DNA from: Hydractinia symbiolongicarpus
Taxonomy: Eukaryota > Cnidaria > Hydrozoa > Anthoathecata > Hydractiniidae
Direction of reading: 5' to 3'
Length of the DNA: 64,000 nucleotides
Assembly (NCBI RefSeq): GCF_029227915.1
Contig: NC_079882.1
Location: forward strand, 22,389,001-22,453,000
Shown here: piece after piece, positions 20,048 through 55,699 of the stretch
Numbering within the stretch: position 1 is the first letter of the stretch
Layout: the number at the start of each line of letters is the position of its first letter
Program-made: the position numbers and the translations under genes
The notes under the pieces: generated by a model
The model's input: the letters and a program-made list of their open reading frames with translations, nothing else
The model's database searches: none
What the model was told of the DNA's origin: nothing

Positions 20048-23000
20048 TCAAACATTATCAACGGATGAATCTTGTACAAGAATTACACGGGTTCTCTCCA
20101 AAGCCAATTTTATGAGAGCTTCATTCTCCTTTTCTCTACGTTTAAGATCTTCTGATTTTTGTTTTTCTTGTTTTTGTTGTTGCTTTTCTTCCTGTTTGCG
20201 TTCTTTTTTCTGTTCAAAGTTCCTCCACATGCCATACAATAATCTATCATCAGTATTGTGCATCTGGTATGTCTGCGCATCTGGCATTGTCTCATACGCT
20301 ATGCGTTCGTAAATCACCTCATTGTTTTCAATGACAGAGGGTACCGTTTCTTCTATTTTTAATTCCTTTTCCTTTTTTCTTTCTTTTTTCTTCTTTTTCT
20401 TTTTTAATTGCACAGGCGGCGGAGAGTCGACAACAACTTTGAGCTTCTTCCTTTCCTTCTTCACTGTTGACTTAACGTCTAGGTTTGGAGTCAAGCCGGC
20501 TCTTAACATCTGTCTTGTGTAGCTTTTTTTCAAAACAACAAGTCGAAACAGCTCATCGGTGTGTTTATCTTCAAGTTTCTTCATCTTTTGCTGATATCCT
20601 AACTTAAATTCTTCGAAAAAAACGCGGAGATCACTCAGCTCTTGATGAATCAGCACTGGTGTTGGCTGTACTAAAAATTTAAATGTATTAAAATAAAAGT
20701 TAGTTTAATTCGTCAACATGGTTAATTGTAAGAAAAAGCAAACCAAAACAGACTCTGTTCGTTAAAGAATGGCTTTAAGACCTTTTAATCTTAAACTTTT
20801 TACTTAAAAAAAATTGGAAAAATCTAGAAATTGTCCTTCAAAAAATACTAATTACGTCATTTTTAAGGACTCTTATAGTACAGTGTTTTGACAAAAAAAA
20901 AGGTTCATACATAATTATAAAAAAATCATATATTTACCAGGATGGACTTTTCTCTTTTTGTAACATTTAATTATATAGGAGACACATATGCCAACAAATG
21001 CCATGGCTAAGTATACGTAACACAATGTCAGTATTATGGAGGTGGATTCTTCGGGTGTAAGAAGCAACTCTTCTACAACCGTTACAAATGGCTAAAAAGA
21101 AAACAAAATAATATTTATTTGGACCTGCTTCATCTTTATATTACTATCTTAATTTGATTGCGAGTTATTTTTAAAATGGCGCCCAGTACAAATTAATCCA
21201 TATTTTTTCTGAGACTGTACTCAGCATGGGACGCTAAAGAAGCAAAAAGAAAATATGTTTTCATTCATATGCATTTACTTTAAATTCAACATAATTTAGC
21301 TTTAATGGTGGAATATTTCACCTATGAGGACATGAGGGTGACTTATAGCCGAAGATTCAATTCCATTAGCGGAAACGTCGAGAAACGAATATGCTGTTGA
21401 AAGAGTGATAAATCTTTTTATTATTTTTAAGAAATATTGCGTCTTGTTGTTGCTTGAAACTCTTAATCGCAAATCTTTCTTTAGCCTTTTTAACTTATGT
21501 ATCTTTTGATTGATTCTATTAGCCCGTAATTAAATAACGTAAAGGACAATTTATTTTTTACTTTTAATGTTTGATTCGTATTTTACATAGGCGATATTTT
21601 TCTCGTCCCACGGATTCGATTAATTTTCGATAACAAAATTAATCGCCAACGGTACTCTTCAGCAAGTAATTTCTACTACGTATTTTGACTGTCAGACAAG
21701 CCCGATTTTGTTCTATGAAAGCACGAAATAATTTTGGTCAAAATAGCAAATGTGATATTTTCTTAAAGATTCCCCTGGACTATATGTGTTATTTGTGGAG
21801 GTTGAAATTGCCAGTTGTTGGCGATGCTGGAAGTTGCATTATGTTTTTTTACAGTGACAGAATACTTTTTTGCGAGAATTAGCTAGCCATTTTGGAAAAT
21901 TTCAGTTAAATTCTGTTGATTCTTGATGCCATTGCATATAAGTTGCTATTTAACAATATAAGGGAAAGATCATTTACAAAAAGTTTTGCCTTCTTCTCTT
22001 TCTCTATCCTCTTAGTAAAACGTAAACAAGGCAAGCCTTACCTGCAACAATCCAATTTTCTTTTGTACAAACCGGGAGATCTCAGCTTGGTTTGAGGAAA
22101 CAAAACTTCTCATATCATCTTCCACCCTGGCAAACTCTGCCGACAAAATAACTCCGTATCCGCTCTTCAAATCCAAAATTTCATATATCTTTAGGCTTCT
22201 TCTTTTTAATTCTTCGGTATAACCTTTGGTAGAGATAGCATCAATCATTCCAATAACAACCTCACCCTTCTCCACGGCGTCTAAAACATCCGTTACTTTC
22301 GTGTAATTTCTTGATTTGTCAACAATAGCATTGCGGAGAATAGCTGTGCGGAACTCGAATGTATTAGTAATGGCTGCGACCTAAAATTATTAAAAAAGTT
22401 TAAAGGGTAAATCTCTTAATATTATATGTACAAGATTTATTCAAGACAATAATTTCACGGGTACTTTGAAATAGTAACAAAAAAATTGGTCGAATCAGTG
22501 AGGTCATTAAATCTATCTCTGCAATTTTTTTGTCACGTGGTTTTTCCCGTGGGCCATTCAACTAATTTTAAAAACTACTATTTTTGATTCTTAGACTTTA
22601 CAAATTCTTAGACGTATACGCAAGACCAATCGCAGCGCAGTGTTTGAGTGCAGATTTTCAACAACCTTTTTTGCATTCTATGAGCTAAATGTGCAGATGA
22701 ACCAAAGTTAAGCAAATACCTTTGTTCCGTATAATTTATATTTAGTGTCCATAGCGCTCACACTCATGCCAGATGAGACAGCACCACCAAAAATGCTGAT
22801 TATGCATAAACCAATCAAAATCCACCATATCATGAGAGCTTTAGCTAGATTAGACGAAGATACATAATCTCCATATCTAAATGCAATTATAGGTAATGAA
22901 GTAATAAAATGCAAAGTACGGGAGAGACATACGAATTATGAGAACACATCTTCTTCGCTAAATTCTATTTGCTGATAGATATTATATGCGTAGTTTTAAC

Positions 23001-23676
23001 AACTGGGTTACCCTAACGTCGTCATAGTGATAAATGAAAGCCAAAATCCTTCGTACGCGCCATACACAGACCTCTGTCTTGTGATGTCACTCTCAGATAC
23101 ATATTGTTCCTAAAATAATGTTCAAACGAACGCAAAAGTTATCATACCCTGAAGAAAAAATTGAATCCAAAATAATAACAGTAAAAATAATAAAAAAACT
23201 TACGGAGAACCAAAGGACCCATCCCATTATTGTCGCTAATAAAATAGCTATCAGAATTACGGGCCAAGCAGCATACACTGCAGTAAGGATATTCAAGAAT
23301 CCAACAGTCTTGTACTCTGGTTGATAAACAATTAAGGCGCTTCCCTGAGATGCAACAATACCGACAAATGGATATGTTCCAGCAAATCGAGTTATTGCGA
23401 ATCTTCCAAAGATAGGAAAAGACAAGTGAACATCACCGTCCAGATACTTTTTCACTTCATCAACATCTTCTTTTTGAGAAGTTCGTCCACTCTTGGTTCT
23501 GTTATAATATAGCGATGGTCGGTATGATTTGCAATCAGTACATACGTTATTCACCACCATCTTCAGAATGTCAGGAAATAAACCCTCAACATCGCCTTCT
23601 ATTTTACCAACTTGACCAATGTATGGTTTGTAGTCGTACCAATTACTAAACACATACTTTGGACATTTGCACGTAT
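20048..23676 (-). CDS. Ionotropic glutamate receptor-like channel module with K+ channel filter and coiled-coil tail
   Basis: Exons 23204-23676, 23012-23109, 22720-22876, 22042-22380, 20938-21091 and 20048-20670. The first encodes a substrate-binding-type S1 lobe ([11 protein letters not shown], then TYPFVGIV) and membrane segment M1 ([20 protein letters not shown]). The next two encode the re-entrant pore and third segment, joined as [17 protein letters not shown], then [20 protein letters not shown]. Exon 22042-22380 is the S2 lobe; 20938-21091 is M4 ([20 protein letters not shown]). The last exon is a roughly 200-residue cytoplasmic tail rich in Lys, Glu and Gln, probably coiled-coil. TMTTLGYGD matches the Kv signature T-x-x-T-x-G-Y-G-D, and GluR0 and AvGluR1 show that K+-type filters occur in glutamate-receptor folds. 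The animal M3 motif SYTANLAAF is missing. K+ selectivity is predicted from the motif, not shown. Confidence 0.85.
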
Positions 23677-29600: not shown

Positions 29601-32600
29601 AAGTTCGAGTACAATTTTCACCACGTTTAGCCAAATAATAACCTAAAAAATTGTTACATTAAAATAACAGACACAACAGATAATTTGATGCAGTGTTTCT
29701 TCCTTCTGTAATAGGTCAGAGGGTCTTGGTTTAAATTACTAAATTAAAAAAGGGCACTTGAGTCGAAGGCAGCTCTTATTTACTTCTTTCTAAATTAATC
29801 AATTACGATAAACATACCAGGACAAGGAATGTTATTGCAGTATCTAAATTCTCTGCTGTCACCTTCACAATCTTTGCCACCTAACGCAGGGCGTGGATTG
29901 ACACACCAGCGCTGTCGCATGGCTGTACCCAATCCGCAACTCAATGAACAGCTACCCCAATTTGTCCAAAGTGTCCAGTTACCATCAACTACAAAAAATA
30001 TTTGCAACCTATTATTTATTTAAAAAATCATTCGGGAAAAATCACTTTTGATTTTTGTTTTCCTAAAAAAACTGTTTATGATAGCCTATTTATATCAAAC
30101 TAAAAATGCTGTACAATACGAAAGCATGATAAACAGCCATACCAAACTCCCCCGTAGTTGCATTAATCGGCTCACTCCATGGTCCGTTACCAATTTTTGT
30201 GAAACCAGCAATATAAATGGTGTAAGGTGTATTAAGAGAAAGATCTGTTAATTCGCAGCTTCCTTCCCAAATGTCGTTATGACTACAGTTGACAAAGCCT
30301 TCAGTGCTTCCACCTCTAATTTTAGTAAAACCATCAACCACCTTATAAGATATGTTATAACCAAGCAGCACTCCCTCGTGGTAATTAATTGCTATTGGTA
30401 TCCAACTTATATTTAAGCTACTACTACTGGTATCGTAGCCAGTTACATTTAGCGGAGGAGAACTGGGAACTAAAAGAAAATGACCCATGTTTAAAATCTA
30501 AGCTATAATAAAGATACCGTCTAAATCTTTTTAACCTCGGAAATAAAGTCGGGTTTACCAGAGAAGCAGGAATGTTAGAAAGGCAGGTTTAGTAGAGAAG
30601 CGGAATATAAGAGAGGTGGGTTTGCTGAAAAGGCAGGTTTGCTAGAATGGCAAGAATATAAAAGTACATGAACGTATACTTATTTGAAAATTGTTTCACT
30701 AGAAATCTCTTACCATTTTGTAGTGTTTTATATGTTTTAACAGCAGTAGAGGGTCCAGCACCAATCTTTGTATAAGCTTTAACCGAAAAAGTGTATGACG
30801 TGAAATTAGCAAGCCCGTATACCAACAGGTGTGTCAAATTTGTTGTCCAAATTACAGACCTAATATCATCATCAGTCTGCCAAGAGTTTAGGATATTTGT
30901 GACATTAACTTTGTATGCGATGATGTCACCACGTCTTTGCATTGAAAAAACATGCAACCATTCGAGGTATACACTGCCCGATGTGATTGTTTCAGCTCGA
31001 AAGTTGTTGACAGTTCCAGATGGGACTGCAGAAAAAAAATAATTAGTTTATACAATTCTTTGTATATTTAGATGTACTAAGCCAAAAGATGAAGCTGATT
31101 TTATAGTACTTTTAGATTCATTGTTTTTGCGATCTCACAGGGTAACCATCCAGCTAAAAAACTGTTTTACTGCCGAGATATAAAGATTTCAAACTTTTCT
31201 GTTTATGGGTATCTGGAAGCGTTGACAAAAAATGGCAAGGTGAAGGTATAATTAATTCACATTAAAGACAAATCACTATGCAATAGACAAATGTTGTCTA
31301 TTATGGGTACCATAACTAGTTTTAAGTAAACGGCAAAGAAATCTTATTTTTTTGTTAGGAAGGTTAAGGAGGATTTTCAATTTGTTTGGCGGTCTAAAGA
31401 TTTGTAGGGAGACCAGGAAACCCAGTCTCACCTTTTCAGCGTACTTGACCTGAAAGTTGATAGAGTGAAAGGCTCTACAGACGTCTATCCACACTGTACT
31501 TATCGTTAGTAACGTTAAATTTAATATAAAGACAAAATGGCATACCCATTTCATGCGTTTCTCCATATAAATGTGTAGTCGCTCCACATCCAGGGTTAGT
31601 ACAACCAGCAATCCAGAAATCATATTTAGTTGCAGGAAAAAGATTAAACGTATGGTTGTATGTATTTACATCTTCATGTAAAGAGTGCCACGAACCATTG
31701 CGTAGTAAACCTTTACCGTAAATGTGAAAATGCTGGAGGACGCCGTGTACAGACAGGGGTGGTATTTCTTGCCACGTTAAAGTGAACGAATCGTTTGTTT
31801 TATTTTGTATAAGAAACTGGTCAGGAGGTTTACTTGGAACTGAAATAAAATTTGGTGAACAAGTAAGGAATTGAAGCTACATTATAAAAATATATAAAAA
31901 CTTGTGACTTTCTTACCGTCTTCTAAAGTTCGTTCGTACAAGTCAAGTACAGGTCCTGCTCCTTTGATCGTCACTGCTTTTACAGAAATATTATGAAATG
32001 TGAATTTCGTCAAATTTGTGAACACAGACTGTGTGATATCATTTTGAACTTCAACAGTACGATTAATCATACTTCCAAATGCATCAATAATGTGTACTTC
32101 ATAGTGAAAGATACCATTTTGAAGCAGCCTCTCAGGTTTACCGATGCTAAGTTCAAACGATGAAGAGCTAGTATGTGAGATACTACACGTAACTGTTCCA
32201 TGTGGTTCTAAGAGAAAAAAAAACACGTGTAAAGAAACGAACAAAGAAACGAACAAAGAAACGAACAAATGAACAAAGAAACAAATAAACAAAGAAACGA
32301 ACAAACGAACAAACAAACGAACAAACAAACGAACAAAGAAACGAACGAACAAACGAACGAACAAACGAACAAGCAAAAGAACAAGCAAACGAACGAACGA
32401 ACGAACGAACAAACAAAGAAACGAACGAAGAAACGAAAAAGAAACGAAAAAGAAACGAAGAAGAATCGAAAAAGAAACGAAAAAGAAACAAAGAAACGAA
32501 CAAAGAAACGAACGAACAAACGAACAAACGAACAAAGAAACGAACAAAGAAACGAACAAAAAAACGAACAAACAAACGAACAAACAAACGAACAAACAAA

Positions 32601-35600
32601 CGAACGAACGAACAAACGAACAAAGAAACGAACAAACGAACAAAGAAACGAACAAAGAAACAAACGAACAAGCAAACGAACAAGCAAACGAACGAACGAA
32701 CAAACGAACGAACAAAGAAACGAACAAAGAAACGAAAAAGAAACGAAAAAGAAACGAAAAAGAAACAAAGAAACGAACAAAGAAACGAACGAACAAATGA
32801 ACAAAGAAACGAACAAAGAAACGAACAAAAAAAACGAACAAAGAAACGAACAAAAAAAACGAACAAACAAACGAACAAACAAACGAACAAACAAACGAAC
32901 GAACAAAGAAACGAAAAAGAAACGAACAAATGAACAAAGAAATGAACAAAGAAACAAACAATGAAACGAACAAATGAGCAAAGAAACGAACAAAGAAACA
33001 AAGAAACGAACAAAAAAACGAACAAAGAAATAAACAAAGAAACAAACAAGGAAACGAACGAACAAATGAACAAAGAAACAAACAAACGAACAAAGAAACG
33101 AACAAAGAAACGAACAAAGAAACGAACAAACGAACACAGAAACGAACAAAGAAACGAAAAAACAAATGAACATAGAAACGAACAAAGAAACGAACGAACA
33201 AACGAACGAATGAACGAATTAAAATTGGATCTTACTATCTTGGTCGGTCATACTGTAAATTGGATCAGAAACAACACCCATACCACCATTATTTTGTGCA
33301 AATGTAAGTATTGTATAATTCCAATATTCATGTAAACCAAAATATTCAACTTCCCTGGACAATGATTCATTATAAAAAGTTGCGTTTGATATAAGGTCTG
33401 CTATACTGACGTTTTCTCTCACAACATCGTGATAAATCTCTGTTTCTAACAATACCAATCCATAAAACTGCAATTCGCCTGATAGACAGGGACGAGATAA
33501 GGCATCAAATGTGAGTTTAAGAGATGTTGAACTTGTATTAAAAAGCTTCACATTTGAGGGTGGACAAAAGGGAGAATGTTCTGCAGTACGGAATTCAATG
33601 GTTAGATTTTCATTACTACAACCTTCGTCACTGCAAGCTCTTCCTGTCATTGTATAATTTGTGTAATAATAAACCGAACGTAAACTGTACATCATCTTCG
33701 AAGACGCAACAGGATATCTAATTTCTTCACAGTCAAGGAAAACATTTATGAGGTATTTCCAATATTCTTCTTCCTCAAGAGTATGGGAAATATTAAGTAT
33801 AAGCGTTGTGTAGTTGTCCACCCAGTCGAGTGATTTATACATGATTTCGTAATATCTAATCACTGTATGTTCGTTTTGGAGTCTAACGTCACCAATACTT
33901 ATGTTGATTGACGTAAGGTCATTCGGCATTGGAGGTCCAAATGTTATGTTTAGGGTTTGAATGCGTCCAGGCACTATAAAAAGAATTATAAACTTATTAT
34001 TATTAGCTCTAATTGATCGAAAAAGTTGCATGCAAAAAGAAAAAAAAAGTGCAACAAACCTGTTCTACCGAACGCGAAACAGTATTCATTCTTAACATTT
34101 TCTCCAATATAGTCATTGAATGCCCATATTGAAAATTTATACGGCATCATAGGGTTATCCACGTTTGAATGATTGAGTGAAGAAACATTTTTACTATCGG
34201 TCGCGAGTGTAATATTTAGGCTTCCTTCTGGAACGGCAAGGGAGGGAAACATTGGAAAGATGTACAATTTGTATCCATTTAGAATGTAGGAATTGTATAT
34301 ATCAATATCATCAGGCAACAAATCCCATGAAATCTTAACAGTCGTCGAATCTATCAAAGTGATGTTTGTTACGTTAGGTGCCATTTCAGGAACTACAAAA
34401 GAAACATTTTAAAAATAAACATTTTTAATGAGCGCTAGCATAATTTTATCCTAAATCTAACGGTAGTACATGTTCATTAATACACCACATGGTTTTAAGA
34501 CGTACCGCTTTGACCACTGCGTTCTGAATACCCTGGTGTCAAAGCACCAAGCCCATCCTTGTTCACAGTTCCAAGAAAAAAGCGGTATTCAGTGAAAATA
34601 CCAGTGTTGGTCAGTATGTATTCCGTGGCTGTTGTATTATCAATTGAATCGAAGAGGGTTACATTATCTTCGACAGGGGTTCTTGCGTAAAATAGTTTAA
34701 AACCATAAAAAGTCGGTGAATTCCAATATTCCATTGGGTACGTATTCCAAGTAAGTCGAATTGAAGTTTCGTTATGCGGTAGGACGCTGATAAACGATGG
34801 CGGAATGATGTTGGCTATAAGATGGAAGCAGGAAGGAAAATTACAAACTGGCAAAACTCACAAAATTGACATTCAATATTATAATTAATTAGGTTTACAT
34901 AACACTTGCCTGTGGAGGGTGTTATTATGACTTGTGTCTCGCTTGTTGGGCTAAACCCTTCATGCGTGACAGCGTATATCTGCAAATTATAACTTCGGTA
35001 AGTAATAATATCCGTATACAAAAATGTAGAACCTCCAGTTAAAAAATATCTGCGTTCCACGGTTTGTTCTACACCTGAGCTAACATATTGAATGGAAGCT
35101 TTCACTAAAAATCCTTTGTGATAACGCCTCACCAAGGTGTCAGTATTGGAAATATTAAACTGCATAGTGTACGCGTTCAACATTCCCACTGTGAAATTCG
35201 GAGCTGTGTGGTGAACTAAAAGAAAAAGGAAAGAACGACTGTAAATTACGCAGACTTTCAAAATACTTCCGTTGCAATTTTTTAATAATAGTTTCATAAC
35301 TTGAGTTTTAAATTTAGAACTTTATAGAAGTCACTGTGACATTAACTTGACGTTATATTTTGTGGTTATGCTTACTTATTCCAAGGGATATACACTGTCT
35401 ATTTTTTTCAGAAGGAAACCAAAGTTAAAGATCATTTTCTGCTTTAAAAAGAGATCGCAGTGTCCTGCAATGCATTAATGTTAGTACTGGCTGCAATGCG
35501 TCAAGGTAATCTGGCATGACTTACGTCCTACTGTCGTCTTTGTTCTTTCTATTTCACAATAGCGAAAATTTTTTTTATAACTCGTCTTTCCCACAAACGC

Positions 35601-38600: not shown

Positions 38601-41600
38601 GATTCCCATCTTATCTCACCTTCAGCAAATCCTGGATTTGTAAGCGTAAAATTACCGTTAAGAGCAAAATTGCCGAATCTGAAAAACGTTACATATCTAT
38701 CGTCTCTGTCTTCTTCGATGTACAGTGAAAAGGTTAGCACAAAGCTCACACATTCTTCTAAGTCAAGCATGCAACTTTTCGTTAAGGTTGCAATGATGGC
38801 ATTGGTATCATTAACACACAGCGCAAGATTTACTGGGGACTTTTCTTTGTATGTCTGCTCAATTTCGTCGTTTAAAGATGTATCAAACGTTCTCTCAAAT
38901 AGGATGTTTTGGAAAAACCTGTCCGTTAAGACTAAAATAAAGAAAAGAGGAGTGTGTTCACATTTTATTTCTCCCAATAACATGACAAGTGACAATTTAA
39001 ACATCAATAAAACATTAGATAACCTAAATGCATACCGTTTCTACAGGTTAATTTGCTATGATATCTTTCCAAAACTGAATTGCACACACAACCTCCTTTA
39101 AGAGGGCTACATAAGCTATTTTGATGACATTGATGAGGACACCATACGTTATCTAAAAGAAAATCTCCGTAAATACATTTAGGTATTTGTATAATATACT
39201 ATAATATTCAAACTAGGTGTTTAAAATTACTCTTACCTAACCTATCTGGACAGAGCTCGAATGCTTCAACATGCTTCGATGACAGACTCTCATTGTAAAA
39301 TTGAAAACAAGAAATCAATCCCTCATAAAAAACATTGAGTGTTTGTCCAAGATTTGCTGGTTCTCGAAAGAAATAAACATTCTCAGGAAATGGTATAATT
39401 TCTGACGCTTCTAATGAAACAACTTGATGGTCAATCTAAACAGAATGACAACAGTATACCATAAATCTTAACTTGAAAGTACAAATAGAAGCATAGATTT
39501 TATTTGTAATCAACGTACACTAAACTATGTGAAAACAAATCTTACTGTATTATTGACATAAACAGACAGTTTTTCATTTGCATATACAATTGCAAGATAC
39601 GTCCATGTGTTGTTCACAAAACTCCACGAGGATGTGTATATATCTACATCGTTACATCTAAATCAATAAACAACTTTAAAAAATAGTATTTTCGAACTTG
39701 GATTGTCTGCCTTGTATAGAATTAATTTAAGACAAGCATATAACCAATCCGCATATAAAAACAACGATATTAATATTCTTACGCCAGGATCAACTTGTCT
39801 TCAGCTAATTTGATTTGCATCACATTTTCTCCTGTTTTTCCAAACTGCGAGAATATTACTGGTTCAAGTGGTAGGTAGAATTTAAGATGAAACAAAACAG
39901 AGAATTGAGAAGTGACATCCGCACTCATGTTTCTTATTTCTTCAGCTTGCAAGATGGCAGAATTGCTATCCTTCACAACTTTCAAGGCGTGCATTGGATA
40001 CATAAATTTGTCTGAAGTCCATTCACTTAACAATGTCTCAAAGTGAGTTAAATCTTTTTCATATAGGCCATAATCTTTAGTTGTTTTCTTGAAAGGGTAC
40101 AACAGCTTTGGTTGTGGAAGACCATATTCTCCAGACTTTGCTATTGCTGGTAGACCAGCTAAATATAAATTTATAAATTAGAAGTAAAGCGTAAACATTT
40201 AGCTAACCTAAGTTGCAAAGTAAAACAATGAGAAGAAATACTTACATGAACCGAAATCCAACTCAGACGCTTCAATTGAGTCAATGGCTATATCAGCATG
40301 TCTACCTGTTTGTCCAAGGACAATAAAATGCATCTAAAAAAATGTTGATTGCATTCATTTATACCAGTAAATAGAAATTTTCTATAAATACTTTCTTGGC
40401 TATACGGAAGACCATGTTTTTTAAAAAAGTGTTGTGCAAAATCAATCATGTAAAAATTTTAGATTGTTAGCAAATTATTATCAACATTTTCGCAGAATAT
40501 ACATGGAATTATAGCGAAAATTCGATGTCTGTTAACCGTAAATGATTGACTATACATTGGAATTATCGCGAAAATTCGATGTCTGTTAACCGTAAATGAC
40601 TGAATATACATTGAATTATAGTGAAAATTCATTGTCCGTTTCCCTAAAATTGCTGACTAAATAAACATGACGTAAATTTAGTAAGAAACCCTAAACCAAG
40701 TACGCATTTATAGCGGAATTAAATTTTAAAATTTCTAACAAGGTTGCCGGGTTCTCGTTTAGTCGTTTACAGTACGTGAACATTAAAGATACTTTTAAGT
40801 TCATGATAGTTTAGTAGGCGACGTTTCGGGAGATCCTTCTCCCATCATCGGGCAAAGTAAAATGATGTTGAGCATGTATTTATATAATTGCAGAGGATCG
40901 AAATTCATAAAAATTAACCAATCAGAAACGAGCTGATAATTACAGTTAATTACGGTAGTTAACATTTTCGGACCTAGATGTAGGTAACTACTTCTTCTGT
41001 AGGGCTGGTAACCAAATCTCAGGAAGTTGATACGAGATGGTGTTTATGTGTTTGTTACGTGCTACACTGTTGATGGTTTCTTTAATCTTCCTGGCCGTTG
41101 TTCTGGATTCTCTGTCAATGATTTTCTTCTCATCCCAATTAAACCGATGACTTCTGCTCCAGCTGTGGTCCGCAATTTCGTTTTTCTTTACATCTCCGTT
41201 TCTCACTGCGCACATATGTTCTTGTACTCGTTGCTTAAACTTTCTTTTTGTTTCGCCTATGTACACTGCATCACAATCTTTACACGGGATTTCGTCAACA
41301 ACATTGCATTGTTCTACCAGGTTTAATTTGTCTTTTGGTTTAGACAAAGTGCTTCTTAGGGTGTCTTTAGAGTTAAGAATGCATTTGATCTTGTGTTGCC
41401 TTAAAACTCGACGAAGGATCTCGCTAGTACCTGGTACAAAGGGTAGGAATGCTGATGCGATGAAATCCTCTGATGTTTTCTTGTTGTCTCCGTTGCATCT
41501 TCTCTTCATTTTATTTTCTACTTGCGTGATGACTTTATGACTGTATCCATTTGCGATTAATGCATTTCTTACACGTCGAATTTCTTCTTTCCTCTCCTGT

Positions 41601-44600
41601 TGGTCACTGACTACGCTGTTGGTACGATTCAGTAATGAAGATATGACACTTTCTTTGCAAGATTTCTGATGGTTTGATTCGAAGTTAAGGTACTGGTCAG
41701 TGTGTGTTGGTTTACGATACACTGAAACTGAAATGGAACCATTCTTGCGTTTGACCAAAGTGTCCAGGAAAGCGATACTTCCATCGTGTTCAAGCTCAAC
41801 AGTGAATTTGATTTGTCGATGTAGGCCGTTGATGTGTTCATGGAACTCTTCTAGATGAGATCTTTTGATTATGGCGAATACGTCGTCAACAAATCTTTTC
41901 CAAACCTTTGAACGTCTGTCTGATGTGAGTAATGCTGTTGTCTTGTGTGCTTGCATGTATATTTCTGCGACTACTGATGATGCAGGGCCTCCCATGACAA
42001 CTCCGTCTGTTTGAGTGTAGAAGTTCTTGTTAAACAGATACCATGTTTTGGTTAGAACAAGTTCGACCAAACGCAGAAAATCCGGTACTGGAATCTTCGT
42101 CTTTTCACCGAATGCAGCATCGTTTTCAATAAGGTCTTTAATGATGTTTAGGGTGTCTTTTTTGGGAATATTTGTGTAGAGTGATGTGACATCAAATGAT
42201 ACCATGCATTCGTCGTCTGCTATCTTTATTCATCTGATGTATTCCGAAAATTCTTTTGAGTTTTTGCTGTGGTCACTTGCTGTAAATTTGCTGAGGATAG
42301 AAGCAACAAATTTTGATAAGTTGTATAACGGTGTAACGGTGTTCCATGAACACATCAACGGCCTACATCGACAAATCAAATTCACTGTTGAGCTTGAACA
42401 CGATGGAAGTATCGCTTTCCTGGACACTTTGGTCAAACGCAAGAATGGTTCCATTTCAGTTTCAGTGTATCGTAAACCAACACACACTGACCAGTACCTT
42501 AACTTCGAATCAAACCATCAGAAATCTTGCAAAGAAAGTGTCATATCTTCATTACTGAATCGTACCAACAGCGTGACCAACAGGAGAGGAAAGAAGAAAT
42601 TCGACGTGTAAGAAATGCATTAATCGCAAATGGATACAGTCATAAAGTCATCACGCAAGTAGAAAATAAAATGAAGAGAAGATGCAACGGAGACAACAAG
42701 AAAACATCAGAGGATTTCATCGCATCAGCATTCCTACCCTTTGTACCAGGTACTAGCGAGATCCTTCGTCGAGTTTTAAGGCAACACAAGATCAAATGCA
42801 TTCTTAACTCTAAAGACACCCTAAGAAGCACTTTGTCTAAACCAAAAGACAAATTAAACCTGGTAGAACAATGCAATGTTGTTGACGAAATCCCGTGTAA
42901 AGATTGTGATGCAGTGTACATAGGCGAAACAAAAAGAAAGTTTAAGCAACGAGTACAAGAACATATGTGCGCAGTGAGAAACGGAGATGTAAAGAAAAAC
43001 GAAATTGCGGACCACAGCTGGAGCAGAAGTCATCGGTTTAATTGGGATGAGAAGAAAATCATTGACAGAGAATCCAGAACAACGGCCAGGAAGATTAAAG
43101 AAACCATCAACAGTGTAGCACGTAACAAACACATAAACACCATCTCGTATCAACTTCCTGAGATTTGGTTACCAGCCCTACAGAAGAAGTAGTTACCTAC
43201 ATCTAGGTCCGAAAATGTTAACTACCGTAATTAACTGTAATTATCAGCTCGTTTCTGATTGGTTAATTTTTATGAATTTCGATCCTCTGCAATTATATAA
43301 ATACATGCTCAACATCATTTTACTTTGCCCGATGATGGGAGAAGGATCTCCCGAAACGTCGCCTACTAAACTATCATGTTCAAGAAATGATAAACTTTCC
43401 ACAGTAATATGAATACTGAACAGACAAACCGAAATATTATCTTCAATAACTTTTATGTTCCTTGGGTTCAAATAAATCATAAAAAAACCTACTCGAACAA
43501 CTTAAAGTAGTGAAACGCTGATAGATATAACTGTTACTAATATCACTAAAACACTAGATTCCATTGTTTATGCTAATCCCTTAAGCGATCACGATCTTGT
43601 TGGCGTAATGCGTAAGATGCATGTGAAGAAATTACAAGAATTATGATAAAGAAGAATTCAAAGCAAGTTTACGCAACGTACAGTGGAAGAACTGTTTATC
43701 ACAAGCAAGCATGAACGCTGCATGGGATTTATTTTAAGATTACGTCATTAGAGTGATTAATGCTCATGCCATAAAAATTTGAACGGAAAGTTCGTGGAGA
43801 TGATAACCCCTGTATGAAAAAAGATGTCAAATTAAAATTGAATACACGTGACTACCAACTTCAAAAAGCTAAACGTACTAATGCCGAAGTCGATTGGTCT
43901 GTTTATAAAAAAAACGCGAAACATTGTAACAAATACCATTCGTCACGCAAAATCGAACCATGTACGAAATTTATTTAAAGGGGATAATAACAGTCCAAAG
44001 GACTTTAGGAATTGGATTGAAAAATCCAATTAAATCCAATCAAGAAAGAAGATAAAAACTCAAGTAGATGTTTTAAAGTTGACGACACAATATGCATTTC
44101 TAACACATTCTGTTCGTCTTTCTCAACTATTGGTCAGATTTGTCACAGAAGATACCTTCTCGTTCAAGTTCTGCATGGAAAGTATTTCATTGCTTTAATT
44201 ATTTAACGTGTTTTACCCTCTTAAAGTTGCATTAAACTTCAAATTCGTTACTGTAATAATATTGAAATCAATTAAAAGTTCCAAAGCGTCTGGTGCGGAT
44301 GATATTCCTGGTTCGTTGATTACGATTCCTGGTTCGTTGATTACGATGCAGCTGAAGAGCCCCTTTCGTTGTTATTAAACATCAGTTTTAAAGAAGGTAT
44401 GTCTTCCGACAGCCGAGGAAACTGCGAAAATAACACCTCTGTATAAATCTGGCGAAAGAAACTGTTTTGACAACTATAGGCCGATATCCGTTTTGACTTT
44501 CTGTCTAAGGTTTTTGAAAAAATAGCTCATCAAGAGATTGCAGACTATTTGGAGGACAACGATCTATTAACTCCTTCCCAATATGGCTTTCGTCACAATA

Positions 44601-47600
44601 GGTCTACCAAACGCGCATTATCGAAATTAGTAGATCACATACGCAACAATATTTTTCGAAAGCATTTGACAATGTCAACCATGCATGTTTATCACAAAAA
44701 TTGCCGTACTATGAGATTGACGGTGTAGAGCAAAAATGGTTGTGTGATTAATTATTGAAATGCAAACAGCTAGTAGTTTTTGATGGAATAAGTTCGAATA
44801 CAGAGAGCATAACTCACGATGTACCGCAAGGTTCAATACTAGGACCTCTCCTATTCCTGGTCTTAGTAAACGACCTTCAACAGCAAATAAAGCTTTGCTC
44901 TCTGTTGATGTATGCTGATGATTATATTTCTCCGATAAATAAACTGCTAACATCGAAAAGCGTTTAATCGAGGAAGCTGAAATTGTTGAAAGATGGGTAA
45001 ACGATAACTGTTTTTTGTTAAATAAAAGAAAAGGAAAAACTGAGCTTATCTTATATGGTTCTCTTCATTCAAACAACCAAAATGTTCGATCAAAATCAAT
45101 AATATTGAACTAAACCAATCTGATTCAAAAATATCTTTAAGCTTAGATCGTCATTTGAATTTGAATTCTCATAACCAGCTAGCATACATGAGAATATGCA
45201 CACGTACCTCTTTACAGAGTAAAATTCGTTGCACAATATCATCAACTATAGCTGAAACTATTTACAAATTTTTGATAAATCCATTGTTCCATTACTGTTA
45301 TCCCCTACTTGCTGGTCTAAACATCACTTGGAAGACCAAATTCCAATTTAAACAGAATAGAGCAAAAAAGATCATCCGGACTGAGTCCTCACTCGTATGG
45401 CCAAGTATCGAAGTCCAACGTAATAAAAAGATTGTTAATAATGTGTTTAAATCGATGCACAAACTTGAACCTATACGACACTGTGAGTTTGTACGTATCT
45501 AGGACAAAATCAACAAGCGTGACAATAACTCACTACTCCGCCTACCTCGAGTTAGAACACAAGCTGGTCGAAAAACTACGAAGTACGAAGGCTCATTACT
45601 ATTTAACAAGCTCGATTTGTTTCTAAGAAATGAAAGTCATTTATCAAATTTAAATCAAAATTATGGCACTGTCTCTAATTTATCTAATTTATGTAGTTAC
45701 AAGTTTTTTTCTTTACGTTAATCTATTTTTCAAGCTATCCATTTTCAATTGTATCCGTTAATGTTTATTTCTTGTGTTTTTCTTATAGCAAAGCAATAGT
45801 TTATTTCAGCAATTCGTTGTTTATATATTTTTCAGGTCCTACATTGATAACAGAATTTCCTGAAGTAGTAAACCTGTATAATGATAATATTTATAATATG
45901 TGATTTTGCCAACCAGCAAAGTGTTATCCAAGAAGCACTACAGTTAGGATTACCGCAGCAGGACCCTCTTAAGTGGCCTTTGCAGAAATGATTTCCGGTT
46001 TAATTACTGTCGAAACCTAATTTCAAATTTAACAACAATAAGGTATGTATAGCTTTTAAAACGATAGAATAAAAACAGGAAACTATACCTTTGTAGATAC
46101 CCCTTGCCAGCCAGGATTAATTCTCGCCTGATACCACCTTTTTCTAGAAGATCCATATTTAAAAAAGAGGTAAGGTGTCTTCGTGTTTGATGTGTCGATC
46201 AACCAAACAAGCAACTTTCCAACGTTCGCACCATAAATGTAATACCAAAATTGAAAGGTGACTTGACTTGCTGGAAATGCAGGTGAGGTGAAAAATGCTG
46301 GATGTTTCCATTTGTATGACGTTGGGGATGGAAATAGTAAAAAATTACCTTTGAAAATAACGTAAACAAAAAATAGTCATAACTTGCACTAAAGGTAAAA
46401 GGATTCTTGCATTGAAAATGACCTTTTTGTATGTTGTAGAGGATAAAAAGTTAATCAAGTCCTTTAAAATAAATATTAAAAATACCAACAGTGCATATCA
46501 ACTTCTTGATAAATATATCCACTAAAACTCACTTTGAAAACTTTGTTGAACAAATTTCAAGGAGTGAAAATAGTGTGCATGAAATAAAAGCTACTGAATA
46601 TGACCCCATAATTTCTAGATGGTCTCCTATATCAGCTAATGTATTTTGTTCAAAATGGCTGACAAAATACAATTTTGTGTTGAAAACGCGCAAAATAACG
46701 CCGATAATGTAAATGGGCAAACCTATGTTTTCTTTCAAGCTAATGACTAATTCTATGTAATGGCGCTTTTGATCAAAAACATGTTAAAAGAATATGACCT
46801 ACAATAATATACATGGTGTGACACATGGACAACATACACTTACTGTAGTCTCTATATTGGTAAGAAATTTTGAGGTTAAACTTGTTAATTGTTGTGAGAC
46901 GTGTCGTAGTAGATCCGTATTGCCAATAAATAATAATAGCCATCTTTTCATCTAATCCACTGAGCTTGTTTTTCTTCACATATTTCCTAAGCATAGTGGA
47001 TATATCTGGGGAGAAGACCTTCTCATTTACTTTGCTTGTTTCTAATGGCCAGTGAATAGGAACGATATCTTCCAAGTGCATTCCCAATTCGCTGATAGGT
47101 ATATTCAAACAGGTTTTATTACTAAGAATGGCAATATGTAGATACTCAGTACGATCAGATGAATCTTTGGCTATGTATGTCAAATACGCACTTTCAATAT
47201 AACTATTTGCTTCCAGGTCTTTCAATGTGAAGTAGAAGGTTGTGAACCTACGTGTTGGTTCATCAAACAGAGCTAGTATTTCAGTATTGTCTTCCAAATA
47301 AGGTGACATGATGCAAACGCCATTTGTGTCGATATAAGACATTTCTGAAGGAACCAAAGTTTTCAGCAATAATGATCCATAAGCTAAAAAATAATAAAGT
47401 GTACTGAACGGCATGTCTATAAAGCATTTTTCATGCACAGAACATTAATTTGTCGCCCCCCACCCGTACTCCCCAACCCTAAAGTACTTCACAATTAATT
47501 TTAGACTAGATAAAAAAACGTCATAGTACAACTTATACAGTTAATGTAACATTGAAACAAACAGAACTACCTTTCTCCAAAAAAAATTAGCAAGCATTGA

Positions 47601-53600: not shown

Positions 53601-55699
53601 GATTGCACGCTCGTTTGATTGTGGTTCATCTGAAATGCAATGCAAAATGATAATCAAACCGATACAGGTTAATATACATGTACAACTGACGGTGCAAAGT
53701 ATACTTTTGTAACGAAAACATCTCTAACCTTGAGTTTTGTATTTTAAATAAATTCCATCTCCTGTGACCAAGCAGATGTAAGAATTTTGTTGAACCACAA
53801 ATGCATCACAGTGTCTTTCATCAAACATTAAAACCCATGTTAAAATTCCATTATGTACTCCACTAACATATATATATCCATCTCTCAAACAATAAATTTG
53901 ATTAGATTCTCTTACAAAGTCAGAACACGGTCCATTTAAAAACAATGTTGCTTTGCCTTTAGTATGTGTATATATATTACCATCAGCATGAAGTGCGTAC
54001 AGTAGTTCACTGGATTCATCATAATGGACCTTTTCAATCGAATTATCTGTTTGAGCAACGTACCCTTTAAAGGTCCAGTCAGTCCCTGAAAACAAAATAG
54101 CAAAGATAATTAGTACAATAGCAGCAATAAGCAGGAAGGCAACCAAACTAAACAAAAAAAATGAATAAAAAGCACTAACAATCAATCCTTCCAACGTAGC
54201 CAGAAACATCTTCAATATAAATAATATATTTATTTCCCACATAAATATCTTTTGAGCTAATTGCAGCTGGCGCGGTGAAAAGAACATCGGTATTATCAGC
54301 ATAACTGATGCTCTGAGATTCTATGCAAATGCTGGAATCAGAAGGAAGATTTGGCACAAATATGCAATCTTTGATCGATGCTGTTAAGTCATGGTAAACA
54401 GTCCAATCTTGAACGATGCCAATTGAATCTATTTGAATGGTATAAACCTTTTTCTGGTTAGACACCCAACTTGTAATTTTTCCTGTTGAACGTTCTTTAA
54501 TGTTAGATATTCCAATTTGGTGACTTCCCACCTTGTGCACAGCACTAAAACCTAACATAAAACCAATGAAAAAAAATTCAATTTAAAACGCACAAAAATA
54601 CCAACTAAATATCGACTCTCTATATTAGTCAGTGACAATTGATAATATCATTATATGATACACATTCTGCTCCTGATGCAGTGAATATAACTTCAACAAG
54701 TCCTTTTAATAGTAGAACAACCTAATAACACTTGTACTGATTGGGTAAAATCAGAGAAAGTAAGAAAGATCTAGTTCTAAATGAAGATTGTTTAAAGACT
54801 TTTTTGAGCGGATCCAGCCATGTAGGGTACCTTTACCAGTGGTAATAGCTTACTCACATCTATTCAATTTTTTCTATCCATCCACGCAAACTTTGTCCTT
54901 GCAAAAGCAAAATCTATTTTTTTTACTTTAAAAGACTTGGCTGGTCAAGTTTATCATTCTGCTTGTAATTTGAAAGTGTTGTTTTTTTAATTCTTTTTTT
55001 TGCAAATTTTAAAAAAGCAAAAGGTCTATCATATTATGAAACTAGTCAACCAAATAAACACAGATGTTACTTTCAATGAAACAAAAAACAAAGCAAGAAA
55101 AGAAAAATTAAACTTTTTCAAGTAACTCTTCGTACACATTTTTTTTTTCACTGAAAATAAGAGAAATATCAGCATAACAATAAAGAACTATGGAAAATAA
55201 AATGGATATACAAACTAGAAATAACTAGCATAGTCTGTAGTTAGCTCATGAAGTTTTTGTTCAATTTACTGGAAAATGGTTGGTACTAAATACCGAAAAA
55301 TAATAAAATGTAAGGCAGCGTGCTTTTGATAGCATTATTTGGTATTTGCACAGTTATCCAATTGGGTTTAACACTGTGAATCCAATTGATTTAACATTGT
55401 GAAGGTAAATGTTTGAACGCAATAAAAATCATACAGACAAATAAAGATAAACAAAGTAACCTAATGTTTAAAATAACAAAAAAAAATTTTTAACGAATTT
55501 AATTTCATGCATTCTTCGCTGATACTTATCTATATATTGATGCTACCGTTTATGCAGAAATGAAAGAGTTATAATGATATTAATGATGGCAGAAACCATT
55601 GAGAAATTATTACTTCAATTTACGGTTCATGACACCTACCACAAGTGCAAAACTAACCAACAGTGCGAAAATGAGAGTAGTACTCGATTTCATCTGCAT
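20048..55699 (-). CDS. Giant adhesion-type receptor with K+-filter glutamate-receptor-like channel (whole gene model)
   Basis: Forty-five exons with compatible phases give 12,096 nt (4,031 codons plus TGA at 20048-20050). Approximate residue map: signal peptide 1-21; propeller-like 22-264; ConA-like 265-410; propeller-like 411-662; linker to 703; C-type lectin to 814; beta-sandwich to 994; MAM to 1110; LamG-like to 1339; EGF to 1378; LamG-like to 1584; SEA-like to 1706; nine FN3 to 2676; TSP1, Cys-rich module and three TSP1 to 3010; SEA to 3118; three FN3 to 3417; channel and tail 3418-4031. Between 54551 and 20670 I see no initial or terminal exon, so splitting this stretch into several genes lacks support. 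The start at 55699 is less sure (see that entry). The expected location is the plasma membrane with the modules outside. Ligand and function are unknown; gating by an extracellular or matrix cue is inference. Confidence 0.72.
24322..26665 (-). CDS. Membrane-proximal FN3 triplet of the channel gene
   Basis: Three phase 1-1 exons of 297, 297 and 303 nt (26369-26665, 25490-25786, 24322-24624), each one fibronectin type III domain. They show the usual Trp in strand B ([21 protein letters not shown]), the Tyr-containing C strand ([19 protein letters not shown]) and the YGP/YGDGP turn before the last strand. The last exon ends G|, which joins phase-correctly to the S1-lobe exon at 23676. They lie between the SEA domain and the channel, so after any SEA cleavage they would stay with the pore. 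Confidence 0.88.
26759..27568 (-). CDS. SEA domain (MUC1-like, with G-S-V-I-V motif) of the channel gene
   Basis: Three exons (27459-27568, 27302-27375, 26759-26898) with phases 1-0, 0-2 and 2-1 give about 108 residues. The order fits SEA: an N-terminal helix region ([14 protein letters not shown]), a second helix ([13 protein letters not shown]), then [12 protein letters not shown] and a C-terminal GLNDISVAS that resembles the end of the MUC1 SEA domain (LTISDVSVSD). The G-S step (codons 26894-26889) lies where MUC1-type SEA domains self-cleave (G/SVVV). Autoproteolysis here is inferred from that motif alone. Confidence 0.82.
27652..29988 (-). CDS. Thrombospondin type 1 array with an inserted Cys-rich module (channel gene)
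   Basis: Five phase 1-1 exons: TSP1 at 29818-29988, 28775-28927, 28241-28417 and 27652-27828, and a distinct Cys-rich module at 29319-29642. The TSP1 exons show W-x-x-W and CSxSCG-type cores ([29 protein letters not shown]) and CPG ends. The 108-residue inserted module has ten Cys, begins [14 protein letters not shown] and ends RRLCNC; I cannot assign it to a named family. TSP1 repeats typically bind glycosaminoglycans or matrix and are often C-mannosylated on the Trp motif; that role here is inferred. Confidence 0.87.
30143..35215 (-). CDS. Nine-domain FN3 stretch of the channel gene
   Basis: Exons 34910-35215, 34506-34814, 34060-34392, 33236-33973 (two FN3 domains in one exon), 31917-32207, 31546-31839, 30714-31025 and 30143-30469, all phase 1-1 and about 97-111 codons per domain. 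Each starts near a Pro-rich VP or AP and has a Trp or equivalent in strand B and an NxxGxGP-type turn near the end ([21 protein letters not shown]). N-x-S/T sites are frequent. Exon 34910-35215 ends at a GC donor (AG|GCAAGT), the only donor in the chain that is not GT. The intron before 31917-32207 is a 1 kb simple repeat. Confidence 0.87.
32218..33222. repeat. 1 kb simple-sequence tract of 4-bp period filling an intron
   Basis: The tract is built from the words AAAC, GAAC, AAAG and GAAA in a 4-base register and occupies nearly all of the 1,028 bp intron 32208-33235. Because the unit lacks stop codons in most registers, it produces long spurious open frames on both strands (Asn/Lys/Glu/Thr-rich on plus; Phe/Val/Ser/Leu-rich on minus). 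Blocks containing AACAAGCAAA near 32366 and 32666 suggest a higher-order duplication of about 300 bp. On the sense strand of the host gene it is pyrimidine-rich up to the acceptor. Confidence 0.9.
35525..36170 (-). CDS. SEA-like domain exons of the channel gene
   Basis: Three exons (36052-36170, 35791-35852, 35525-35676) with phases 1-0, 0-2 and 2-1, the same phase pattern as the SEA domain at 26759-27568. They give about 111 residues starting [16 protein letters not shown] with a [15 protein letters not shown] helix and a [10 protein letters not shown] strand. The equal phase pattern and secondary-structure order suggest a diverged SEA domain without the G-S cleavage motif. The family assignment is tentative; the splice model itself is well supported. 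Confidence 0.6.
36541..36702 (-). repeat. tRNA-derived SINE, second family (intronic)
   Basis: On the minus strand this begins near GTGGCACGTGGCCTTGTGG (A-box-like TGGCCTTGTGG) and has a B-box-like GGTTCGGTCC about 45 bases later. It is more GC-rich than the flanking intron. It is not a functional tRNA, since no cloverleaf could be folded by eye. Confidence 0.55.
37235..37267 (-). CDS. Putative 33-nt microexon of the channel gene
   Basis: This 11-codon, phase 1-1 segment ([11 protein letters not shown]) has an AG acceptor after a T-rich stretch and a GT donor (CAG|GTATTA). Including or skipping it keeps the frame between the LamG exon ending at 38314 and the SEA-like exon starting at 36170. 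It may be an alternatively used exon or a chance match. Confidence 0.35.
38314..40158 (-). CDS. LamG/ConA-like - EGF - LamG-like block of the channel gene
   Basis: The first LamG/pentraxin-like domain is spread over 39783-40158 (phase 1-2), 39546-39657 (2-0) and 39237-39435 (0-1). It has [32 protein letters not shown] and [15 protein letters not shown], the typical strands of a ConA-fold sandwich. Exon 39036-39152 is a short EGF-like module with eight Cys ([19 protein letters not shown]). Exon 38314-38931 is a second ConA-fold domain ([44 protein letters not shown]-like end). The domain class rests on strand pattern; exact family (LamG versus pentraxin) is uncertain. Confidence 0.75.
40246..46348 (-). 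CDS. MAM domain of the channel gene, split by a 5.7 kb intron
   Basis: Two exons, 46089-46348 (phase 1-0) and 40246-40333 (0-1). The first gives [19 protein letters not shown] and [13 protein letters not shown]; the second gives FIVLGQTG followed by [13 protein letters not shown]. Together they make the standard MAM order: W-x-Y or F-W-Y core, then F-x-I-V-x-x-G and D-I-A-I-D-x-I. The phase 0 join across 5,755 bp therefore lies inside one domain, which is good evidence that both sides belong to one gene despite the retroelements between them. Confidence 0.85.
40496..40665. repeat. 54-bp tandem repeat, about three copies (intronic)
   Basis: The unit GGAATTATAGCGAAAATTCG and its continuation starts near 40505, 40559 and 40613. 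The first two copies are almost identical and the third is diverged and truncated. It lies in the MAM intron next to the left Penelope copy. Confidence 0.75.
40802..42340 (-). mobile_element. Penelope-like retroelement, left copy: RT + GIY-YIG, 5' truncated
   Basis: A reading frame at 40988-42205 (405 codons) encodes the C-terminal part of a Penelope reverse transcriptase: motif [13 protein letters not shown], motif [18 protein letters not shown] and catalytic FVDDVF. A GIY-YIG endonuclease follows ([20 protein letters not shown]). The frame continues upstream to 42340 with one in-frame TGA at 42230-42232 (after KEFSEYIR), so the copy is truncated at its N-terminus and carries a stop. The 3' non-coding part to 40802 contains a hammerhead-like motif. 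It forms the left half of an inverted pair and lies antisense to nothing here: it runs in the same direction as its host gene. Confidence 0.88.
40817..40853 (-). ncRNA. Hammerhead-ribozyme-like motif, left copy
   Basis: Read on the minus strand it has CCGATGA, a stem GGGAGA/TCTCCC with an AGGA loop, then GAAAC and GTC, the order of a hammerhead core (CUGAUGA - stem II - GAAA). Position 4 of the core is C instead of U, which would be expected to weaken or abolish cleavage. Hammerhead motifs are established components of Penelope-like elements. Confidence 0.55.
42341..43378 (+). mobile_element. Penelope-like retroelement, right copy, inverted and frameshifted
   Basis: This is a near-identical inverted copy of 40802-41846. 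It encodes the RT after motif D and the whole GIY-YIG domain to the stop near 43192. Its coding frame is broken by a 7-bp deletion relative to the left copy around 42570-42580 (GGTCAC-GCTG instead of GGTCACTGACTACGCTG, minus sense), which moves the reading frame. It begins abruptly at 42341, where the left copy also ends, so the two are joined head to head. Non-functional. Confidence 0.88.
43327..43362 (+). ncRNA. Hammerhead-ribozyme-like motif, right copy
   Basis: The plus strand reads CCCGATGATGGGAGAAGGAT then CTCCCGAAACGTC: core box, six-base stem II, GAAAC. It is the mirror copy of 40817-40853, with the same C for U substitution in the CUGAUGA box. Confidence 0.55.
43530..45725 (+). mobile_element. 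Decayed non-LTR retrotransposon (LINE), CR1/Jockey-like
   Basis: The plus strand carries a broken LINE ORF2 in several frames. There is the end of an AP endonuclease ([17 protein letters not shown] near 43577), RT fragments ([13 protein letters not shown] near 44290, [16 protein letters not shown] near 44580, [19 protein letters not shown] near 44822, MYADDY near 44910), and a C-terminal region whose frame includes [19 protein letters not shown] near 45535-45592. Frameshifts and stops separate the parts and the 5' end is missing. It is antisense to the host gene and lies in the MAM intron beside the Penelope pair. Confidence 0.85.
46844..48683 (-). CDS. C-type lectin and beta-sandwich exons of the channel gene
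   Basis: Three phase 1-1 exons. 48561-48683 is a 41-residue piece with two Cys ([16 protein letters not shown]) of unknown fold. 48020-48352 is a C-type lectin domain: [47 protein letters not shown] and FVCQ, i.e. the expected Cys and WLG/W.D..C pattern. The Ca2+/sugar QPD or EPN motif is not evident, so carbohydrate binding is uncertain. 46844-47383 is a 180-residue single-exon module ([31 protein letters not shown]) resembling DNRLRE/CBM96-type beta-sandwiches; the exon at 63226-63723 has a similar layout. Confidence 0.78.
50157..54551 (-). CDS. Beta-propeller-like units and ConA-like domain at the start of the channel gene
   Basis: Phase 1-1 exons 54180-54551, 53729-54085, 53192-53629, 51817-52194 and 50157-50534. 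Four of them (372, 357, 378 and 378 nt) share repeated blades of about 40 residues with patterns such as [53 protein letters not shown] and [14 protein letters not shown], which resemble tectonin/tachylectin-type propeller repeats. Two exons would supply about six blades, i.e. one propeller per pair. Exon 53192-53629 between the pairs is a ConA-fold domain ([31 protein letters not shown]). The propeller class is an inference from the pattern. Confidence 0.72.
51354..51395. repeat. Near-perfect 20-bp-arm inverted repeat (intronic)
   Basis: TTGATCTAATAAAATCAAAC and its complement (one mismatch) are separated by two bases. It is in the intron between the propeller-like exons ending at 51817 and starting at 50534. 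No other feature is recognised. Confidence 0.65.
55636..55699 (-). CDS. Probable signal-peptide exon of the channel gene
   Basis: ATG at 55699 opens [20 protein letters not shown], a basic n-region followed by a hydrophobic core of about 15 residues, then V and a phase 1 donor G|GTGTCA that matches the phase of the exon starting at 54551. The base composition is more balanced than the surrounding T-rich intron sequence, which argues against a chance polypyrimidine translation. The donor is weak, so the true start could lie elsewhere, including in the upstream exons at 57-64 kb. Confidence 0.5.

Follow-up and report, generated by a model that had tools for sequence, protein, structure and literature searches.

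A 64,000-nucleotide stretch of the genome of the hydroid Hydractinia symbiolongicarpus (contig C8, NCBI NC_079882.1, positions 22389001-22453000; hereafter the window) carries, on its minus strand, the exons of a predicted K+ channel behind a long series of exons for adhesion modules. Does this locus hold one gene or two? An earlier sequence-only reading took the channel to be fused to the adhesion exons, and counted 44 phase-compatible exons from 54551 to 20048. The alternative is a secreted adhesion protein that ends at the twelfth of its FN3 domains (FN3-12), followed by a K+-selective receptor gene of its own, with a start immediately before the first channel lobe (S1). We find the adhesion-channel fusion very likely, and the best explanation of the locus as a whole, with the mechanism proposed below included, is probably one very large gene for a type-I receptor channel. 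Coordinates are those of the window and descend along the minus strand, unless a contig or the plus strand is named.

The exon chain itself gives a partial answer. Exon ends were picked by hand from the scored acceptors and donors of each open frame and then chained, because self-training predictors proved unreliable (they over-predicted and blurred exon ends). The rebuilt chain runs from 54551 to 20048 in 42 exons with a product of 3,934 residues; 40 of its 41 joins are in phase, and its sites are AG acceptors and GT donors, with a single GC donor at 34910. The sole open join, from exon x47 to the MAM domain, is open because the front MAM exon (at about 46.3-46.1 kb) was left out of the exon list. 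Phase agreement across the chain is nevertheless weak evidence for one gene, since 26 of the 42 exons are of class 1-1, and agreement would also be expected between neighbouring genes made of shuffled modules. The exon run claimed earlier is confirmed, and the weight placed on its phases has to be reduced. Three hydrophobic 19-mers (hydropathy of at least 1.6) are present in the 3,934 residues, all of them in the channel (M1, M2 and M3), while 63 of 65 N-glycosylation sequons precede it. By the same hydropathy scan the adhesion part without the channel has no hydrophobic membrane segment, which counts against its being a gene apart.

Evidence beyond phase agreement comes from collinear paralogs at independent loci. 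The genome searched comprises 480.9 Mb in 76 contigs. In the search with the channel 102 of 143 candidates were scored, and in the search with the second SEA module and the three FN3 domains after it (SEA2 plus FN3-10 to FN3-12) 102 of 142, so the counts from both are lower bounds; for the LamG-SEA1, propeller-to-MAM and 5' propeller blocks all candidates were scored. The channel has at least 82 matches genome-wide, with the S1 exon read at 19 loci, the window included, and the SEA/FN3 block has at least 49. Among the matches listed, 40 of these 49 are followed on the same strand by an S1 exon no more than 4 kb away; they belong to 16 of the 19 loci, and 2,000 random placements (for which some contig sizes are approximate) never gave more than 6. 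Leaving out the window, 34 of 43 listed matches are linked in this way at 15 of 18 S1 loci, against a random maximum of 3. None of the 49 listed matches lies nearby downstream of S1 or on the opposite strand; nine are unlinked at the 4-kb limit, two of them preceding a channel by 4.2 and 6.4 kb and seven lying elsewhere. At seven paralogs the distance from the matched FN3-12 to S1 is only 121-261 base pairs (bp).

The order of modules, tested at paralogs by query coordinates, is kept as well. In the paralog that includes locus L037, 20 module exons follow the order of the window: FN3-1 to FN3-9, TSP1-1, a 108-residue module, TSP1-2 to TSP1-4, SEA2, FN3-10 to FN3-12, and S1. Further upstream, a block of LamG, EGF, LamG and SEA1 has 24 matches, of which 8 are the window's own, and the other 16 all share the strand of one of seven channel paralogs, which they precede by 14-26 kb. 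The block of propeller-like, lectin and MAM modules has 19 matches (7 in the window, 11 in three paralogs, and one elsewhere, on C15). The 5' propeller block has 16, five in the window and the remaining 11 all in front of six channel paralogs, at distances of up to 44 kb. At C11:7616743, C11:9258926 and C8:27657881 the order of blocks and modules is kept going away from S1 (19, 20 and 20 matches, respectively), and at these three loci the order from propeller to channel holds over 31-38 kb. The counterparts in position at L033 and L034 are 60% and 53% identical to the window for FN3-10, 59% and 55% for FN3-11, 57% and 58% for FN3-12, and 64% and 66% for the third SEA2 exon (SEA2c); of these two loci, only L034 has a match to SEA2b. 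For FN3-10 to FN3-12 and SEA2c, the proportion of nonsynonymous differences (pN) is well below that of synonymous differences (pS) in all 12 comparisons (e.g. 0.24 versus 0.69 for FN3-10 between L033 and L034), with synonymous sites saturated in many pairs.

Members of the family differ in their upstream kit. At a distant paralog, L036 (C1:4797710; stretch C1:4791501-4797750), FN3 modules and a SEA-like exon with the motif GSLIA are found, and tblastn detects no TSP1 in the stretch read. Two pairs of channel paralogs with identical exon scores (C8:10748311 with C8:10758023, and C1:12461465 with C1:16052786) are probably recent copies, tandem and distant. No channel paralog occurs in the 304 kb around the window (flanks of 110 kb and 130 kb).

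If the channel were a gene of its own, it should start within the 645 bp that separate FN3-12 from S1 in the window. The sequence-only reading had named a de novo start just upstream of 23676 as the sign of separate genes, and the gap yields no signal-peptide-like exon of fitting phase. Four candidates there run from an ATG to a phase-1 donor, none with a hydrophobic signal, and the gaps of L034, L035 and L036 are likewise empty of signal-peptide-like exons in a usable phase. Within the S1 exon itself no in-frame ATG occurs before 23560, already 117 bases in. At all five loci read (the window and L033 to L036) the FN3-12 donor is of phase 1 (by script) and so is the S1 acceptor (by eye). A stand-alone channel would have about 614 residues, and no protein candidate of 224-712 residues, H. 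symbiolongicarpus included, equals the channel of the window; this absence fits, indirectly, a longer annotated protein.

What kind of channel is it? Its six exons encode, in order, the S1 lobe with M1 (23676-23204), the pore helix with the first part of the filter, TMTTLG (23109-23012), the rest of the filter, YGD, with M2 (22876-22720), the second lobe, S2 (22380-22042), a third, M4-like transmembrane helix placed by hydropathy (21091-20938), and a cytoplasmic tail that ends in the stop codon (20670-20048); the tail has a charged, by eye coiled-coil-like stretch and is in part alignable to a paralogous protein model, P0001. The filter TMTTLGYGD, interrupted by an intron within a glycine codon, contains the K+ signature TxxTxGYG. 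For the joined channel the Pfam family Ion_trans_2 scores 34.5 bits, above its cut-off of 22.5, and Lig_chan scores 24.0 bits, below its cut-off of 30.8. The PDB matches at the pore are nearly all named as K+ channels (among the best 60 of 188 and the best 60 of 459). The K+ pore proposed earlier is borne out in this sense, with selectivity for K+ predicted from the filter. In an alignment with the bacterial GluR0-like protein P0003 over 55 columns, S2 outscores all 100 shuffles; profile alignment (hhalign) of the pore together with part of S2 gives a probability of 98.8, and S2 alone only 10.5. All four sequences aligned have the same aspartate in S2, D290 in the numbering of the 407-residue channel.

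The nearest known kind is that of the K+-selective ionotropic glutamate receptors (iGluRs), GluR0 of Synechocystis and AvGluR1 of the rotifer Adineta vaga (PMC12332018, PMC12226733, PMC6385376, PMC2924276). In the cited passages AvGluR1 is described as having the eukaryotic iGluR architecture with the filter of a K+ channel (PMC12332018, PMC12226733). With these the channel of the window shares a K+-signature pore loop between two lobes, and it differs in its giant adhesion ectodomain, in an S1 too diverged to be detected, and in the filter TMTTLGYGD. By sequence comparison, assignment to this K+-signature iGluR kind has good support from the pore and moderate support from S2. The ordinary iGluRs of the same genome are distinct: their seven frames (L001, L003-L008) share the lobe, membrane helices and Lig_chan pore loop, and all seven carry YTA(I/V/M)LTA after the pore and lack GYGD, the reverse of what is found in the channel of the window. 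The channel profile has no match to any of the seven. Ordinary animal iGluRs have a motif of the SYTANLAAF type at the end of M3, which is absent at the corresponding place of the window channel. A stand-alone relative is the coral protein P0002 of Porites harrisoni (516 residues), with the same S1-M1-P-M2-S2-M3 order in the alignment, the filter TMTTVGYGD, and 25% identity over 84%; judged by this protein, the K+-signature iGluR-like type is present in Anthozoa.

Several observations weigh against the fusion or against the naming of its channel. The fusion is predicted from genomic DNA. The S1 acceptor at 23676 scores low in the splice-site matrix used (0.6); the alternative at 23645, 31 bases inside the S1 exon, scores better (4.9) yet is out of phase. 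Two hydrophobic ATG candidates start at 23966 in the gap, and they do not fit because their donors are of phase 0 and the S1 acceptor is of phase 1. Three of the 18 S1 loci (C1:24178953, C10:23625226 and C8:25323552) lack a listed SEA/FN3 match. At L033 S1 can be entered without splicing, through an open frame that includes a hydrophobic stretch, so a local start is possible at that locus. The coral relative stands alone: it has no adhesion modules in Pfam, and a hydrophobic, by eye signal-like N-terminus lies close before its S1. The NCBI model P0001 (LOC130655615, 377 residues, at C8:27657881 on the minus strand) starts in mid-S1 and omits the SEA/FN3 exons that lie from 142 bp upstream of its S1 match; the upstream matches that it omits are to SEA, FN3, TSP1, LamG and lectin modules, and the model looks truncated. 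The solitary coral protein, the model P0001, the frame at L033 and the two phase-0 candidates of the gap, together with the cheapness of phase agreement among class 1-1 exons, are what a two-gene arrangement has in its favour. As for the channel, 69 of 100 shuffles do as well as S1 against the GluR0-like lobe, so that homology of S1 is undetectable; S1 has no match in Pfam or PDB, neither lobe yields anything useful against PDB sequences, and a fold prediction of the coral relative is too poor for use, with a predicted local distance difference test (pLDDT) of 39.2. The earlier description of the pore as of a ligand-gated type is therefore only partly supported, through S2.

The ectodomain was described earlier as made of propeller-like, C-type lectin, MAM, LamG, EGF, SEA, FN3 and TSP1 modules. 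Scans of the rebuilt modules place Lectin_C, MAM, Laminin_G_3, SEA (for SEA2), fn3 and TSP_1 above the Pfam cut-offs, and they give no match for the SEA1-like module, the EGF-like exon or the propeller-like modules. The chain opens with propeller-like modules 1 (54551-54180) and 2 (54085-53729), a LamG/ConA-like module (53629-53192; Laminin_G_3 at 20.1 bits, below cut-off, with six matches outside the window, all upstream of channel paralogs), and propeller-like modules 3 (52194-51817) and 4 (50534-50157). All four propeller-like modules are placed by the exon chain and module alignment, and modules 2 to 4 also by paralog matches. Counting two more exons upstream there are six, with 10-23% identity to the first. 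A predicted model of module 2 shows repeated four-stranded sheets (pLDDT 77.6), and beta-propellers predominate among its top Foldseek matches, as judged in part from their titles (best E-value 5.2e-3, none at or below 0.001).

There follow an unnamed short exon of uncertain boundaries (48683-48501), the C-type lectin domain (48352-48020; 33.2 bits, with paralog matches), and an unnamed module of 180 residues (47383-46844) with matches in three paralogs. The MAM domain reaches 41.5 bits over its middle part (46338-46101, with approximate start and outside the exon chain) and its last exon (40333-40246) jointly. The intron that splits it holds a mobile element in two inverted copies (40988-42229 on the minus strand and 42503-43192 on the plus strand), with a reverse-transcriptase frame (RVT_1 at 20.5 bits, below cut-off) and a GIY-YIG-like stretch, Penelope-like by eye; at 44480-44967 on the plus strand lie frames resembling, again by eye, remnants of a second, different reverse transcriptase. 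Next come a LamG domain in three exons (40158-39783, 39657-39546 and 39435-39237; supported by Pfam, with Laminin_G_3 reaching 36.9 bits in these scans, and by paralog matches), the EGF-like cysteine-rich exon (39152-39036), a second LamG-like domain (38931-38314; Pfam query and paralog matches), and the three exons of SEA1 (36170-36046, 35852-35791 and 35676-35525), which have the same phases as those of SEA2.

FN3-1 to FN3-9 occupy eight exons (35215-30143), collinear in the L037 paralog. The intron before FN3-6 holds a long low-complexity repeat (32200-33230), open in several frames on both strands. TSP1-1 (29988-29818) is followed by a 108-residue cysteine-rich module (29642-29319) and by TSP1-2 (28927-28775), TSP1-3 (28417-28241) and TSP1-4 (27828-27652), all four TSP1 also being found in paralogs. 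TSP_1 scores 115.8 bits over four stretches, and fn3 scores 56.8, 101.4 and 83.9 bits in three queries, with eight stretches in total. TSP1 alone is widespread in the genome (139 matches in all). The 108-residue module, which has no Pfam family above cut-off, is confined among the matches listed to the channel family, at 8 loci counting the window (120 of 541 candidates scored). SEA2 (27568-27459, 27375-27302 and 26898-26759; 32.1 bits) and then FN3-10 (26665-26369), FN3-11 (25786-25490) and FN3-12 (24624-24322; 83.9 bits over the three, in three stretches) lead to the channel. The claim that the usual bilobed amino-terminal domain is missing stands, no such family appearing in Pfam scans of the rebuilt modules (the part 5' of the window lay outside these scans).

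Where the gene begins has to be revised. The start had been put at 55699, where a good signal-peptide exon of 25 residues (55699-55624) is found, and as the only start this is unsupported. The propeller-like exon 57625-57269 (class 1-1) lies upstream of it and has counterparts in place at C11:7654657, C8:27688541 and C11:9223625 (query 122-237). Since it is collinear in three paralogs, the gene very probably extends 5' of 55699, whether from a single more distal start or from several starts. From this collinearity 55699 is probably not the only start, and its exon is a doubtful or alternative one. Adjoining 57625-57269 is another class 1-1 propeller-like exon, 58218-57845, which aligns with the other five such modules, has no match of its own outside the window, and is probably part of the same gene. 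Further candidate start exons are at 61211 and 77432, and F5/8C exons occur at 61-63 kb of the window and beyond it.

Our preferred explanation, one gene for a type-I receptor channel, would operate as follows. A single transcript would encode a signal peptide and then an adhesion ectodomain of at least 3,300 residues rich in glycosylation sites. Three FN3 domains would feed directly into S1 of a GluR0-type module (S1-M1-P-M2-S2-M3), which has a K+ filter and is followed by a cytoplasmic tail. The pore would be assembled from four subunits, a tetrameric K+ pore being established for the families that it resembles. Self-cleavage is common in SEA domains that carry a G-S motif, and the halves usually stay associated. 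The motif is present in SEA2 in all five sequences read (KGSVIV in the window, L033 and L034, RGSVIA in L035, RGSLIA in L036), and SEA2, which gave nothing useful against PDB sequences, would most likely self-cleave on maturation into two parts held non-covalently. The distal modules may bind matrix, a neighbouring cell or prey, and so add tension to the FN3 stalk and the S1/S2 clamp, or relieve it. A change in the clamp would then alter the opening of a hyperpolarising K+ conductance, so that contact would quiet the cell; the clamp may in addition respond to a small ligand. Gating by contact or force is put forward tentatively, at somewhat less than an even chance. Bolder, and a little less probable again, is the picture of a multigene family of such adhesion-receptor K+ channels, with at least 16 loci when the window is counted, whose self-cleaved ectodomains would open or close the GluR0-type pore in response to contact or force and so inhibit directly; to our knowledge a directly inhibitory adhesion receptor is unlike any known channel class.

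The strongest competitor accepts the fusion and differs over the gate: a small ligand (an amino acid or other metabolite) would bind in the S1/S2 clamp, in the manner known from GluR0 and AvGluR1, and the ectodomain would only place or anchor the channel. AvGluR1 is gated by amino acids while selective for K+, according to the passages cited (PMC12226733). The S1-M1-P-M2-S2-M3 order, the similarity of S2 to the bacterial GluR0-like protein, and the invariance of D290 all point the same way. The lack of any detectable match of S1 to ligand-binding families speaks against it, as does the S1 arginine expected from iGluRs, which could not be placed with confidence; it also leaves the good conservation of the SEA motif and of the FN3 stalk unexplained. 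We hold it an equal alternative to gating by tension or binding, likewise falling somewhat short of even. It is improbable, by comparison, that the ectodomain is a recognition module to be shed, SEA cleavage freeing it and leaving a leak K+ channel. The GS[VL]I[VA] motif of all five SEA2 sequences and the three FN3 domains between SEA2 and the pore suit such shedding, and the usual cohesion of cleaved SEA halves does not. Two separate genes are very improbable in view of the linkage and order kept at the paralogs.

Returning to the fused receptor channel, no adhesion-channel fusion of such layout was found described in the titles and abstract openings of the papers listed. The Polycystin-1 family offers a partial parallel, having a large ectodomain of lectin and adhesion modules, a self-cleaving domain before the membrane, and a channel-like membrane part. 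It differs in that the cleaving domain is GAIN/GPS rather than SEA, and in its eleven membrane helices and TRP-type pore, as against a K+ pore between clamp lobes; the chain of the window has no Pfam match to GAIN/GPS and three hydrophobic segments, not eleven. Cnidarian receptor tyrosine phosphatases and other FN3/F5-8C adhesion receptors are built from the same kit of module exons, with a phosphatase in place of the channel at the end. The class 1-1 modules in common point to exon shuffling as the process that put the channel where other adhesion receptors have an enzyme.

As to the neighbourhood, a receptor-type tyrosine phosphatase lies upstream of the window (L011 and L023, C8:22473084-22486281, minus strand; Y_phosphatase at 250 bits), with F5/8C- and FN3-like exons in front of it by eye. 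At the other end, a further modular gene (EGF_CA, Sushi, HYR and ephrin-receptor-like domains) occupies 198-5108 on the plus strand, and a multi-exon gene lies at 6860-12330 on the minus strand. Pfam gives no match at 0.01 for a 468-residue piece of the latter assembled by eye.

This hydroid gene family, together with the one coral protein, places K+-signature iGluR-like channels in Cnidaria, the animal example in the cited passages being the rotifer. If the fused receptor channel is real, matrix or cell adhesion and a K+ conductance, otherwise separate, would be joined in one polypeptide in an early-branching phylum. It would then be a concrete candidate for the means by which a colonial animal converts contact into inhibition.

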